Below are positions 31,015-35,843 of a stretch of 64,000 nucleotides of DNA, piece after piece. Made by a program: the position numbers and the translations under genes. The DNA is from Catalinimonas alkaloidigena (GTDB lineage: Bacteria > Bacteroidota > Bacteroidia > Cytophagales > Cyclobacteriaceae): contig NZ_JAQFIL010000001.1 in assembly GCF_029504655.1 (NCBI RefSeq), forward strand, positions 3,105,001 to 3,169,000, given 5' to 3'. The notes beneath the pieces were generated by a model. That model had not been told where the DNA came from. It was given only the letters and a program-made list of their open reading frames with translations, and ran no database searches. Every line of letters starts with the position of its first letter. The first letter of the stretch is position 1.

Positions 31015-32283
31015 TTAAGCATATACTTCCAAAATATCACTCCAATTTGAGGTGTATTTTTTAGAAAGTCTTCCCTGATTCGTCTCACCACAACTTTTAA
31101 ATCCCATAGAAGCAGAACGTAACTTAAAGCGTCCGTACTTACGGTTAATTTTATCCATTACCAACATAGCTTTATGGTGTTTTGTCCTATTTACTTCATC
31201 AAATAAATGTTGCTGACACCGGTAAGAAGGTACAAGTCCTTGTACTAAAACCCCTGCCTTCTTATAATTCAAGCCATCGCGATAAATTTTTTCCAATGCT
31301 TTGAAAGCATAACTAATGAGTTCCGGAGTACTATCAGTAGGTACAGGCAAATGCAGGGCTAAGGCATTTGCATATTGTTCAGCTTTACTGTTAAAACGAT
31401 TTGTTCTTATATATACAGTAACCATACTGGCACAGCTATGCTGGACTCTCAGTTTCTCTCCTACTCTGCTACAATAGGTCGCTACAGCTTCCTTTAGGTC
31501 CGATAACTTAGTAATCGGCTTGACAAAAGAGCGAGAAGAACCGATCATTTTCTTATTTTCAGTGCCACTAATTGTTTCAAGAGACAGACAACTGATTCCT
31601 CTGAGTTCATGGTGTAGCCTAAGTCCCACTACGCTCATATGTTTTTTTACCCAGCTTTCATCCAGTCTACTAAATTGAAGAGCATTCTTGATTCCGGATT
31701 GATAAAGAAAGGCTGCATATTGCCTACCAACGCCCCAAATATCTTCCACGGATGTCGACGCCAATGCCTGTTCAAGTTGTGCATCATTTTCAAGGATACA
31801 AATTCGCAAGCCGCTTTTTTTTGCAATTCGGTTCGCAATTTTCGCCAATGTTTTGGTAGGTGCAATTCCTACACAAGTAGGTATGCCTGTCCATTGGTAA
31901 ACGGTGTTCCTGAGGTAATTTCCCAACTGCTCCCAACTACGATATTGTAAGCTATTACCACTCAGCTGTAAAAAAGCCTCATCAATTGAATACACTTCAA
32001 TATCAGGCACAATCTCACGAAGTGTTTGCATCACCCTTCTGGACATGTCTCCGTACAGAGGGTAATTAGAGGAATAAACGGTGACACGATGTTTGTTTAG
32101 AAGGTGTTTTACCTCAAATACCGGAGCCCCCATTTTGATTCCTAAAGCTTTGGCTTCAGGAGAAATGGCGATAATGCAACCATCATTGTTGGACAATACA
32201 ACTACTGCCTTGTGATTAAGGTGAGGTTTGAAAACACGTTCACATGAAACATAAAAATGGTTACAATCTACAAGAGCAAACAT
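31015..32283 (-). CDS. umuC: Y-family DNA polymerase V catalytic subunit UmuC
   Basis: 422 residues, full length. Error-prone translesion polymerase. The N-terminal palm carries MFALVDCNHFYVSCERVF with the first metal Asp, and VYSIDEAFLQL with the Asp-Glu pair. VLSNNDGCIIAIS and KIANRIAKKSG are also typical. The little-finger region and C-terminal UmuC tail are present (IYRDGLNYKKAGVLVQGLVP). It begins directly after the umuD stop (TAGATG, no gap), so the two are co-translated. The polymerase looks intact although its UmuD partner has lost the cleavage nucleophile. Confidence 0.95.
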   Translation of the reverse strand: MFALVDCNHFYVSCERVFKPHLNHKAVVVLSNNDGCIIAISPEAKALGIKMGAPVFEVKHLLNKHRVTVYSSNYPLYGDMSRRVMQTLREIVPDIEVYSIDEAFLQLSGNSLQYRSWEQLGNYLRNTVYQWTGIPTCVGIAPTKTLAKIANRIAKKSGLRICILENDAQLEQALASTSVEDIWGVGRQYAAFLYQSGIKNALQFSRLDESWVKKHMSVVGLRLHHELRGISCLSLETISGTENKKMIGSSRSFVKPITKLSDLKEAVATYCSRVGEKLRVQHSCASMVTVYIRTNRFNSKAEQYANALALHLPVPTDSTPELISYAFKALEKIYRDGLNYKKAGVLVQGLVPSYRCQQHLFDEVNRTKHHKAMLVMDKINRKYGRFKLRSASMGFKSCGETNQGRLSKKYTSNWSDILEVYA

Positions 32284-32757
32284 CTAAGGTTTATGTATAA
32301 TGTAGGTCACTACGCCACAGATATTCAAAGTTTCATCTTCGATAGTGTACAACATGTACAAAGCTTCATCTTCAACACATAAGTTTTCCCTCTTTTCTAA
32401 CAAATGAATTCTTTTTACTGTAAAATACTCATCAACCTTACAGACTACTATATCATTTTCTCTAGGTGTCAGGGCACGGTCAACAACCAGAATATCACCA
32501 TCATCTAAATCAAGTTCTTCCATTTTTTCTCCTCTCACACGGGCATAAAAGGTAGCGGCCGGATGTTTGATCAGATGTTGATTAAGATCTAACTTTAACA
32601 CCACACGATTGTCTGCAGGAGCAGGATGACCTGCAGGAATATCAGATTCAAAAAATGGTAGTGTAAGTATTTCAGAAATATCAGCTGAAAATAGCTCCAG
32701 CGTTAGCATATGATTATTACTATCATTTCTATTCATAGTATAATTATTTTCAAACAT
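32284..32757 (-). CDS. umuD: UmuD-like S24 peptidase without catalytic serine
   Basis: 157 residues. The S24/LexA fold of UmuD is clear: AGHPAPADN with the Ala42-Gly43 cleavage-type bond, LDLNQHLIKHPAATFYARV, DLDDGDILVVDRALTP and DEYFTVKRIHLL with Lys115. But the nucleophile motif GDSM reads GEKM, so Ser is Lys78. Spacing equals E. coli UmuD exactly: cleavage residue to nucleophile 36, nucleophile to Lys 37. Self-cleavage to UmuD' by this chain is therefore not expected. The N-terminus may begin at Met1, Met8 or Met17; Met17 would give a length close to E. coli UmuD. Operon with umuC; a palindrome 53-72 bases upstream may control it. Confidence 0.88.
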   Translation of the reverse strand: MFENNYTMNRNDSNNHMLTLELFSADISEILTLPFFESDIPAGHPAPADNRVVLKLDLNQHLIKHPAATFYARVRGEKMEELDLDDGDILVVDRALTPRENDIVVCKVDEYFTVKRIHLLEKRENLCVEDEALYMLYTIEDETLNICGVVTYIIHKP

Positions 32758-33153
32758 CTTGAAAGTAGAGACATAAAAATACTTAATAAAAGCATAATCA
32801 CAAAGCTTATATACTTTTATTGAGTATACAATTATTTCCCACAGTTAGCGTGAACGTTATCGAAAACACTCAAGTAAATTTTTGACTTATCATATGTGAA
32901 CTGGACATTTTGAACTATTTCTAAGAAAAAAAGGGTTGAATAAGAATGCTTGAAAAGTGCCAAGACTAGCGAATCCACACAAAATGTGAGTTACTCATAT
33001 TTTTCACATTGTATCTATGTTGGAGTAATAAAAATGTTAAAATAAGTCGTGCACAGCAATAAATCTGTAAGAAATATTACATAAACACTATAAGATATTG
33101 AACGCTATTAGAATTGACCCTACTTTTAATCAAATCAAAAAGTGTCAAGAACT
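32758..33153. other. AT-rich intergenic region between divergent umuD and the small ORF
   Basis: About 400 bases containing the umuD-side palindrome (32810-32828) and a second inverted repeat, AATGTGA (32983-32989) with TCACATT (33004-33010), enclosing GAGTTACTC. No further gene is visible. Confidence 0.5.
32810..32828. promoter_or_regulatory. Palindrome upstream of umuD, candidate damage-response operator
   Basis: TATACT (32810-32815) and AGTATA (32823-32828) with a seven-base spacer. The adjoining word, read on the umuD strand, is TGTATACTCAA, identical to 30920-30930. Confidence 0.45.
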
Positions 33154-33422: not shown

Positions 33423-35843
33423 ATGGCAAAGTCTAAACACAATAATATACTTGACACAATTGGTGATTTAATTCTTAATGCAAAAAAGGAAGGTCTAGCA
33501 CATCTATATACTGAAGGAGAATATTTTGACGGAAGACATATACATATCAATGGCAAGCAATTATATCATTTTGGTACAACAGGTTATTTGGGGCTAGAGC
33601 AAGACATGAGATTAAAGGAAGCTGCTTGTGATGCAATTATGCGCTATGGTACGCAATTTCCTTTATCTAAAACGTATGTGTCTTTTGTAATCTATAAAGA
33701 ACTGGAAGGAGCATTAAAACAGATTTACCGCAAGCCTATCGTAATCACGAAAAACAGTACGCTAGCGCATATTGGAATAATACCAAGTATTGTAAGAGAT
33801 GAAGATACTCTGGTGTTGGACCAGCAAGTACATGCCAGTGTTCAAAACGCTGCACAGTTGCTAAAACCCAGAGGTATTCCGGTGCAGCTGATCAAGCATA
33901 ATAATATGAATATGCTGGAAGACATACTAAAAAAAGCACGTGGAAAATTCAATAATGTATGGTACGCTGCAGATGGTGTGTATTCCATGTATGGTGACAC
34001 TGTTCCCATCCAGGAGCTACAATATTTACAGGAACTTTACCCCCAGCTGCATTTATACATTGACGATGTACATGGTATGAGTTGGGCAGGTAAGCATGGT
34101 GCTGGCTATGTGATGAGTCAGGTGGGTGACCTTTCAGAAAAAATGGTACTGGTAGGTACGCTCAGTAAAACTTTCGGCGCCAGCGGGAGTGTAGTCGCCT
34201 TCGGCGATGAGAAATTATATGAAACATGTAAAATCTTCGGTGGTCCACAGACATTTTCCGCTCAACTGGAGCCCTCTAGTGTGGCAGCAGCACTAGCATC
34301 TGCAAAAATCCACCTTTCAGAAGAGATATACCAATTACAAGATGAGTTAAGGGAAAAAGTAGATTACTGCAATAGTCTGATTAATCAGACGAATCTGCCT
34401 CTGATACAAGAAAACAAATGCCCGGTTCACTTTATAGGTACAGGCCTACCGGAATTGGCATACAATTTTGCTAAAAGGCTTATGAATGAAGGCTTCTATA
34501 TTAATGTGGCAACATTCCCAGTAGTACCAGTAAGAAATACCGGGATAAGATTTACAATATCAAGGCATAACCAGAAAGAAGAAATCAAAGCTCTGGTTGA
34601 TGCGATGGTGTACCACTATCCTAAAAGTTTGAGTGATGTAGGAACCAGCCTGAATAACATTAGAGCCACTTTCAAACTACCGTTAGTTGATGAAAACGAA
34701 GGTATACAACATCAAGCTCAAAAGTTGAGTATTCAACTAGAACGCTCAATAAATAAGGTAGATCAGCCAAGCTGGGACAGATGTTTTGATGATAAAGGAA
34801 TATTTGATTACGCCGGCCTGAAAGCTTTAGAAAAAGCATTTCAATCGAATGAAAGAGAGGATCAAAACTGGGAATTCATCTACCTGATGGTCAGGGATGA
34901 AGTAGGAGAAATTGTGTTGGCTACATTTTTTACAGTGGGTTTATGGAAGGACGATGCATTATCAAAATCCAGTGTTTCAGAAGAACTTGAGTTAATCAGA
35001 GACAACAATCCATACTACATGATGAGCAAAGTGTTGTCAATGGGTTCATTGATCACAGATGGTGAGCACCTTTTTTTGGATCGCCAGCATAGAAGCTATC
35101 AGGAGGCACTCAAGGTGCTCTGTAATCAGATTGAAAAACTTAAATTACAGTATGAGACCAAAATGGTGATGATCAGGGATATTCAAACAGAAGATGAAGA
35201 ACTAAAGGAGTTTTTCTATAAACAGGGATACCTGAAGATAGACTTACCAGAAGGTTCAGAACTGACTGCACTTGATTTCAATGATCCTGAAGATTATATA
35301 TCCAGACTATCTCCTAAGTCAAGAAGTCATGTTAGAAAGGATATTCTTAAAAATTCAGATAAAATTAGGATTGAGATAAAAGACAGCTTGACAGAAGAAG
35401 AAATACGTATTGCATATAATTTGTATTGGCAAGTACACAAAGCTAATCATGCATTCAATAATATTGCCTATCCCCAAAAGCTGTTCAGCGTATTGAATGA
35501 AGATGTAAACTGGGAAAGTATTTGCTATTATCACAAAGCAGAAAACAAACTAATAGGTGTGGCCTTTAATCACAAGGGAAAGGATAGCTATCAGGGTGTT
35601 ATTCTAGGCCTTGACTATACATACTCTGAGCTTAAAGTATACAAACAGGCACTTTTTCAAGCCATAATGAGGGCAAAAGCTTTGGGAAAAAGTAAAGTGC
35701 AACTGGGGCTTACTGCCAATACTGAAAAGAAAAAACTTGGCGCAGCATTAATTTCACGAATAGGATTTCTACAGGCAGATAGTAATTATAAACTGGAACT
35801 CTTAGAAAGCCTGGAAGGGAACAATATACTCACAGTAGAATAA
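33423..35843 (+). CDS. Alpha-oxoamine synthase fused to a GNAT/FemAB-like acyltransferase
   Basis: 806 residues. Residues about 1-400 are a fold-type I PLP enzyme of the alpha-oxoamine synthase group (relatives: BioF, KBL, serine palmitoyltransferase, CqsA), which condense an amino acid with an acyl thioester. Visible: FGTTGYLGL, VLDQQVHASVQNAAQL, the PLP-ring Asp in DDVH (214-217) and the Schiff-base Lys249 in GTLSKTFGASGS. Residues about 430-800 look like a tandem GNAT (FemAB/BioF2-type) region: NWEFIYLMVRDEVGEIVL, then SPKSRSHVRKDI, LIGVAFNHKGKDSYQGVI and KALGKSKVQLGL. The acyl-condensing and amino- or acyl-transferring halves on one chain suggest one biosynthetic route, perhaps an aminolipid or amino-ketone signal. 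Product unknown. No operon partner except the small upstream ORF. Confidence 0.8.
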   Translation: MAKSKHNNILDTIGDLILNAKKEGLAHLYTEGEYFDGRHIHINGKQLYHFGTTGYLGLEQDMRLKEAACDAIMRYGTQFPLSKTYVSFVIYKELEGALKQIYRKPIVITKNSTLAHIGIIPSIVRDEDTLVLDQQVHASVQNAAQLLKPRGIPVQLIKHNNMNMLEDILKKARGKFNNVWYAADGVYSMYGDTVPIQELQYLQELYPQLHLYIDDVHGMSWAGKHGAGYVMSQVGDLSEKMVLVGTLSKTFGASGSVVAFGDEKLYETCKIFGGPQTFSAQLEPSSVAAALASAKIHLSEEIYQLQDELREKVDYCNSLINQTNLPLIQENKCPVHFIGTGLPELAYNFAKRLMNEGFYINVATFPVVPVRNTGIRFTISRHNQKEEIKALVDAMVYHYPKSLSDVGTSLNNIRATFKLPLVDENEGIQHQAQKLSIQLERSINKVDQPSWDRCFDDKGIFDYAGLKALEKAFQSNEREDQNWEFIYLMVRDEVGEIVLATFFTVGLWKDDALSKSSVSEELELIRDNNPYYMMSKVLSMGSLITDGEHLFLDRQHRSYQEALKVLCNQIEKLKLQYETKMVMIRDIQTEDEELKEFFYKQGYLKIDLPEGSELTALDFNDPEDYISRLSPKSRSHVRKDILKNSDKIRIEIKDSLTEEEIRIAYNLYWQVHKANHAFNNIAYPQKLFSVLNEDVNWESICYYHKAENKLIGVAFNHKGKDSYQGVILGLDYTYSELKVYKQALFQAIMRAKALGKSKVQLGLTANTEKKKLGAALISRIGFLQADSNYKLELLESLEGNNILTVE

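Follow-up and report, generated by a model that had tools for sequence, protein, structure and literature searches.

The window, a 64,000-nucleotide stretch of the Catalinimonas alkaloidigena genome, contains a umuDC operon in which umuC directly follows umuD (Table 1). UmuC carries the SIDEA and QQHLF motifs and matches the expected polymerase domains, in agreement with the original prediction of an intact UmuC encoded without a gap after umuD. We refer to this umuD as linked, to distinguish it from copies that stand alone. The true start of linked umuD is likely the inner ATG at position 32736, which would give a protein of 150 aa, the length of its relatives. Elsewhere in the window, a gene at 33423-35843 (+) encodes an 806-aa fusion protein, with an aminotransferase domain like that of BioF/serine palmitoyltransferase and an acyltransferase domain like FemAB/GNAT.

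Table 1. Features of the umuDC locus and related genes elsewhere in the same genome.
Feature	Position	Strand	Details
umuD, first gene of umuDC operon	32284-32757	-	ORF of 157 aa
Nucleophile position, Lys78 in GEKM	32524-32526	-	codon AAA
Scissile bond, Ala42-Gly43	32629-32634	-	kept; followed by HPAP instead of FPSP
General base of Ser-Lys pair, Lys115 in FTVKR	32413-32415	-	kept
umuC, Y-family polymerase	31015-32283	-	422 aa; Pfam IMS, IMS_C, DUF4113
SOS-type box 1	32779-32795	.	ATACTTAATAAAAGCAT; one mismatch; 22 bp before first ATG of linked umuD
SOS-type box 2	32811-32827	.	ATACTTTTATTGAGTAT; one mismatch; 32 bp from box 1
Solo umuD	C1:189484-189945		150 aa; LPAGFPSPADD, GHSM, FTVKR (A-G site, Ser and Lys intact)
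L003, S24 repressor-like gene	L003:1123-1959 (G000:C1:1497772-1498605)		278 aa

The translated ORF of linked UmuD reads ...IPAGHPAPADN...YARVRGEKMEELDLDDGD...FTVKR..., and the serine of the GxSM nucleophile motif is absent from it (GEKM), while the lysine 37 residues further on and the Ala-Gly bond are present. The distance from A42-G43 to K78 is 36 residues and that from K78 to K115 is 37; the counterparts in E. coli UmuD, which we take to be C24, S60 and K97, have the same spacings of 36 and 37. An alignment of linked UmuD to the solved UmuD in PDB 8gmt is gap-free over query residues 23-124. The claim that lysine replaces serine at exact family spacing therefore holds, as does the accompanying claim that the Ala-Gly bond and Lys115 are still there. 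Linked UmuD scores 65.1 bits against the Peptidase_S24 profile and 117.2 bits against NF007621, the model of the autoproteolytic Pol V subunit, which is above the cut-off of 110; its nearest relative among the matches listed (P0003) scores 101.1, under that cut-off. Since the nucleophile is absent, we classify linked UmuD as a UmuD homologue only and not as an autoproteolytic UmuD, and its RecA-dependent self-cleavage is expected to be absent.

Loss of the serine is a trait of the lineage. Serine occupies the nucleophile column in 434 of 439 aligned UmuDs, the rows (231 database proteins including the query, 204 further linked ORFs and 4 solo ORFs) having been picked for likeness and not at random. 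Both Ser and Lys are present in 117 of 121 rows, made up of the window protein as query and the best 120 of 794 matches in a protein search, one of which is the query's own database record. Of the remaining four rows, two (the query and that record) have Lys at the nucleophile position and two (P0003 and P0004) have Asn. These last two are the nearest and second nearest relatives among the matches listed, with local identities to linked UmuD of 70% (P0003, GGNR) and 67% (P0004, from Catalinimonas sp. 4WD22, GGNM) and whole-length identities of 66% and 63%. The orthologues of linked UmuD in Catalinimonas niigatensis (G091) and Porifericola rhodea (G012) read GYSM and GGSS, respectively. The original prediction was to be refuted if close orthologues all carried serine, and the outcome is mixed: C. 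niigatensis and P. rhodea carry it (the latter in the form GGSS), and the two closest sequences among the matches listed have Asn.

In a phylogenetic tree the window UmuD, P0003 and P0004 form a clade (support 100/98), which is joined first by P. rhodea (99/96) and then by C. niigatensis (99/73, a node not starred). A third protein search (best 120 of 7147 matches) contributed two new rows, P0234 (GGSS) and P0233 (intact, C. niigatensis-type), and in the enlarged tree the three Ser-lost UmuDs (98/96) adjoin a GGSS pair formed by P. rhodea and P0234 (98/95), while five C. niigatensis-type sequences, including the one from G091 itself, are all GxSM. This pattern of GxSM, GGSS and Ser-lost forms indicates that the nucleophile loop is changing within one sub-lineage, part of which has no serine. 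The P. rhodea gene (L057:7724-8161, -) and one metagenome relative, P0234, keep the serine of GGSS, lack a near-invariant Met and are of uncertain activity. A search of genome contigs yielded no close relative, its 17 loci reaching at best 47% identity over the longer matches.

A search of the window genome (7.9 Mb in three contigs, 99.71% complete) for the S24 family identified five places: the window gene, a second UmuD of 150 aa and three larger S24 proteins. The second UmuD, which retains all the catalytic features (Table 1), lies 2.9 Mb from linked umuDC, and no umuC was found within the 16.4 kb around it. Such a solo UmuD is present in all three genus genomes examined, in each case without umuC in the surrounding 16 kb. 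Identities among the three genomes are 79-83% for solo UmuD, 67-69% for UmuC and 47-55% for linked UmuD. Two IMS proteins are encoded in the window genome, linked UmuC and another of 361 aa, and C. niigatensis has an additional intact umuC-linked UmuD (L060). No row from Catalinimonas sp. 4WD22 appeared among the 120 matches listed for the solo gene. The original prediction had suggested looking for a second UmuD in the genome, and this check is positive, with an intact stand-alone copy that also has a like predicted SOS box.

The two boxes upstream of linked umuD follow the palindrome ATACTT-N5-AAGTAT. At two mismatches the whole window contains 7 such sites against 5.3 expected, which is no more than chance, so the case for the boxes rests on where they are placed. 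At up to one mismatch, for which about 0.001 sites are expected per 100 bp, the three genus genomes contain 81, 69 and 71 sites, compared with 47, 34 and 40 for the reversed pattern. At this threshold linked umuD has two boxes upstream in each of the three genomes, as does L003, an HTH-S24 gene, where the boxes are 32 bp apart; solo umuD has one exact box, 29 bp before its ATG, in each. We looked at recA and recN in two genomes, the window genome (G000) and G091. Two boxes precede recA in both, in the region that separates it from a divergently oriented gene: those of G000 (both exact) are at 96 and 120 bp and those of G091 (one exact) at 102 and 126 bp. Upstream of recN there are two boxes in G000 (162 and 222 bp, one exact) and one exact box in G091 (183 bp). 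NCBIfam models confirmed RecA (561.1 bits) and RecN (434.6 bits) of G000, and their G091 counterparts were assigned by likeness only. Exact sites elsewhere than at recA, recN and solo umuD make up 2 of the 6 listed in G000 and 8 of the 11 listed in G091.

L003 is 83-88% identical within the genus and matches S24 with 56.6 bits, while its HTH matches fall under the Pfam cut-off (16.7 vs 30.2); the HTH matches of the other two larger S24 proteins of the window genome are over it. By its domains and boxes, L003 is a candidate non-canonical LexA of the Bacteroidetes type. ATACTT-N5-AAGTAT is a candidate further SOS box in this genus, where it accompanies a conserved S24 repressor-like gene; the loci concerned are L003, L134, L133, L146, L143 and L151-L153. 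An exact box is likewise found 30-31 bp upstream of a gene for a small protein of about 131 aa, both in G000 (L135:1957-2349, -) and in G091 (L147:2229-2624, +); the G000 protein matched no NCBIfam model. Because the same type of box precedes linked umuD, solo umuD, recA, recN and the HTH-S24 gene, we predict that the dead linked UmuD and the intact solo UmuD are induced together. umuD is usually under SOS control, so the like boxes suggest co-expression of the two proteins and not their pairing.

How often linked UmuDs lose their catalytic residues was assessed in a survey of related genomes. UmuD matches occur in 19 of the 148 genomes in the family and in 164 of the 390 in the order sample. 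The survey covered 259 stretches including the window, a part of the order-sample matches, with 262 UmuD-like ORFs, from which 20 were dropped (15 gapped at key columns, 2 not UmuD-like, 2 longer than 230 aa and 1 shorter than 120 aa), leaving 242 UmuDs in 143 genomes for the counts. Across family and order, Ser is present in 202, Lys in 200 and both in 199 of 205 umuC-linked UmuDs. UmuDs were called solo when no UmuC-like ORF adjoined on the same strand although at least 1300 bases were available for one; 28 of these 37 have Ser and 25 have Ser and Lys, some of the solo calls perhaps being mistakes caused by broken assemblies. Among linked copies, Ser is lost in three, namely the window gene and those of G010 and G232, and Lys is replaced by Arg in three more, those of G433, G449 and G480, each of which has other intact copies in its genome. 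A UmuD clade (L303, L305, L306 and L246) has Lys replaced by Arg with Ser kept; three of its four members are beside umuC and their genomes hold other intact UmuDs. Several stand-alone UmuD-like proteins, with no umuC beside them, have lost both a catalytic residue and the usual A-G cleavage segment (L077 in G071, L078 in G125, L079 in G027, L080 in G099, and L349-L352).

A linked copy that has lost Ser occurs in 2 of the 17 genomes that have an intact solo UmuD, compared with 1 of the 114 that lack one (Fisher p = 0.044, in a test that ignores kinship and is one of several), and 15 of the 17 genomes with an intact solo copy still have Ser in linked UmuD. When any other intact UmuD is counted as a potential partner, dead linked copies amount to 5 of 139 with and 1 of 66 without (p = 0.67, kinship ignored). 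These tests are weak and blind to kinship, and they no more than suggest a connection of linked Ser loss with a solo partner. The exception is G232, whose linked UmuD has GDAM (Ser to Ala), FIVRR (Lys to Arg) and an altered cleavage segment, with Phe44 kept, and in whose genome no other UmuD match was found, which indicates that the loss does not need a partner everywhere. We therefore rejected the rule that every dead UmuD has a partner, given this case and the non-significant per-copy test. In G180 (L252), from the same group as G232 (L353), there is a like umuC-linked copy with Ser to Ala and Lys to Arg changes, which has a broken frame and was dropped from the counts.

The arrangement seen in the window genome recurs in G010, which is on another branch of the tree. 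Its linked UmuD is dead (GEAM, Ser to Ala; FMVDR, Lys to Asp) with the AG pair kept, and its genome also has an intact solo UmuD. The sequences upstream were compared with CTAA-N5-TTAG, the motif bound by a non-canonical Bacteroidetes LexA (the Pontibacter repressor) according to PMC8565304. The dead linked gene has two exact boxes, the nearer one 13 bp before the assumed start, and the solo gene has two one-mismatch boxes, the nearest also 13 bp from the assumed start, with both pairs spaced 44 bp apart. Sites with one mismatch occur often (15 kb of L063 contain 9 and 15 kb of L076 contain 11), and the spacing of the boxes before the solo gene therefore weighs more than their match.

In addition to the catalytic site, the dead copies differ in the arm that follows the scissile bond. 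The mature N-terminus is GFPSPA in 411 of the 439 aligned rows, while the window clade has GHPAPA, GYPAPA and GYPAQA in its place and the dead copy of G010 has GIPSAV. Phe44 (residue 2 of mature UmuD') is missing from 4 of 5 Ser-lost rows and from 4 of 434 Ser-kept rows. Two of these four Ser-kept rows (L245 and L248) have no recognisable cleavage segment, and three of the four Ser-lost rows belong to one clade, so that they represent two events and not four. The four solo copies in the alignment keep GFPSPA, including those of the window genome and G010. In the published model of Pol V (PMC11791011 and PMC12926913), one UmuD' arm is free while the other enters UmuC near the active site, and a single UmuD' is bound by the C-terminus of UmuC. 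The GFPSPA motif would be dispensable for a subunit that no longer enters UmuC. PMC11791011 describes a parallel in PolB2 mutasomes with duplicated PPB2 genes, where the arm motif is found in only one copy.

The likeliest reading of these observations, though one that we consider about equally likely to prove right or wrong, is a model in which linked UmuD no longer acts as a catalyst and serves as a partner in a Pol V with its manager divided between two genes that are induced together. The observed basis of the model consists of the residue states, the second gene, the boxes and the recurrence in a second lineage; from these we infer induction, formation of the heterodimer, cleavage in trans and division of the two Pol V positions. 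Upon DNA damage, a non-canonical LexA-type repressor would release both umuDC and the distant solo umuD. The intact solo UmuD would then respond to the RecA filament, cut itself and pair with the umuC-linked UmuD as a mixed dimer, in which protease activity and the processed GFPSPA arm reaching into UmuC would both come from the solo subunit. Linked UmuD would be the passive half, its kept Ala-Gly bond perhaps being cut in trans by the partner. McDonald 1998 is reportedly a study of intermolecular cleavage. According to PMC5342242, the arms of uncut E. coli UmuD S60A undergo trans-cleavage when this subunit is dimerised with one that bears the active site and RecA-ssDNA is present, and UmuD and UmuD' preferentially form heterodimers. 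An intact UmuD in the same cell could do the same for the dead linked UmuD. On the other hand, the altered residues that follow its scissile bond might leave linked UmuD hard to cut, which would argue against efficient trans-cleavage. The original prediction had proposed trans-cleavage, constitutive activity or a role as inhibitor, and of these the intact solo UmuD with its like box makes trans-cleavage, or a mixed dimer, the likeliest.

Other readings of the same data need to be considered. One that we regard as unlikely, though by no means negligible, is that solo UmuD' has fully replaced linked UmuD as the partner of UmuC, leaving linked UmuD either as an uncut brake that pairs with UmuD' and lowers Pol V activity or as a protein on its way out. 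The greater variation of linked UmuD among the three genomes than of UmuC, and far greater than of solo UmuD, is consistent with such a replacement, as are the long branches in the clade of P. rhodea and the window and the loss of near-invariant residues from the mature N-terminus. However, all five linked UmuDs of that clade keep the A-G bond and the Lys, which argues against a pure brake, since a brake would not need them. It is improbable that linked umuD is losing its function without acquiring a new role, its frame being kept only because it precedes umuC. The differing nucleophile residues in the clade (K, N, N) and the high divergence of linked UmuD would fit such decay, but the window UmuD and its two nearest listed relatives have full, indel-free frames of 150 aa each, their whole-length identities to the window protein are accompanied by conserved blocks around the dead site, and the two SOS-type boxes are kept. 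A role-less pseudogene was thus rejected as first choice on account of the full frame and conserved blocks.

Equally improbable is that full-length dead UmuD supports UmuC constitutively, without any cleavage. The G232 lineage, with its dead umuC-linked UmuD, altered cleavage segment and no partner found, suggests that in some members of the order Pol V may work without cleavage. No sign in support of constitutive activity was found in the window genome, which instead has an intact UmuD with a like box and a linked UmuD that keeps its A-G bond, and activation in E. coli requires cleavage (PMC4552617). Finally, a read-level or assembly error at the Lys codon, which the original prediction had named as a possible undoing, has a negligible probability and was rejected, because the codon, AAA in the window gene, has no base in common with the TCT of both same-genus orthologues and the two nearest listed relatives, in a supported clade with the window UmuD, have Asn at the site.

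The split-manager model can be taken further, to a proposal that is possible but that we hold only tentatively: Pol V in these bacteria may be an obligate heterodimer whose two UmuD' positions are fixed by the genome, with the solo protein as the only protease and the only entering arm and the linked protein as the scaffold half, and this split may have arisen at least twice in this Bacteroidota family, in the window lineage and in G010. The published Pol V model places two identical UmuD' in two different places on UmuC, and if natural paralogues filled these places, one of them lacking protease and usual arm motif, each place could be altered independently of the other. If this is true, RecA control of a mutagenic polymerase can pass to a subunit encoded elsewhere. 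In the open-licence literature we found no published report of a naturally inactive umuC-linked UmuD.

Compared with E. coli UmuD/UmuD', the system described here is alike in sequence family, operon with umuC, scissile X-Gly bond, catalytic Lys and predicted SOS control, and differs in that linked UmuD is without the nucleophile Ser and a second, stand-alone UmuD gene has a like operator. HumD of phage P1 is a UmuD relative that is not known to depend on self-cleavage and is a pre-shortened, UmuD'-like protein; in contrast, linked UmuD is full length and scores 60.4 bits against the HumD model (NF051876), under the cut-off of 120. The regulatory features resemble the Bacteroidetes non-canonical LexA regulon, as set out in PMC8565304, in having an S24 repressor-like gene with its own boxes, boxes before recA, recN and umuDC, and a palindrome with a 5-base spacer. 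The main published motifs are CTAA-N5-TTAG and GGA-N5-TCC, with single divergent palindromes also reported, whereas the box here, ATACTT-N5-AAGTAT, is neither of the two main ones. The laboratory pairing of UmuD S60A with an active-site-bearing UmuD, described in PMC5342242, likewise combines a dead subunit with an active heterodimer partner able to cut its arm; there the dead subunit is a made mutant, while here it is natural, occurs in three related sequences with Lys or Asn, and may be cut by analogy. Lastly, in the PPB2 duplications of PolB2 mutasomes (PMC11791011) an error-prone polymerase also has two copies of a small subunit, only one of which keeps the entering arm motif, but the protein and polymerase family are unrelated and there is no protease step.
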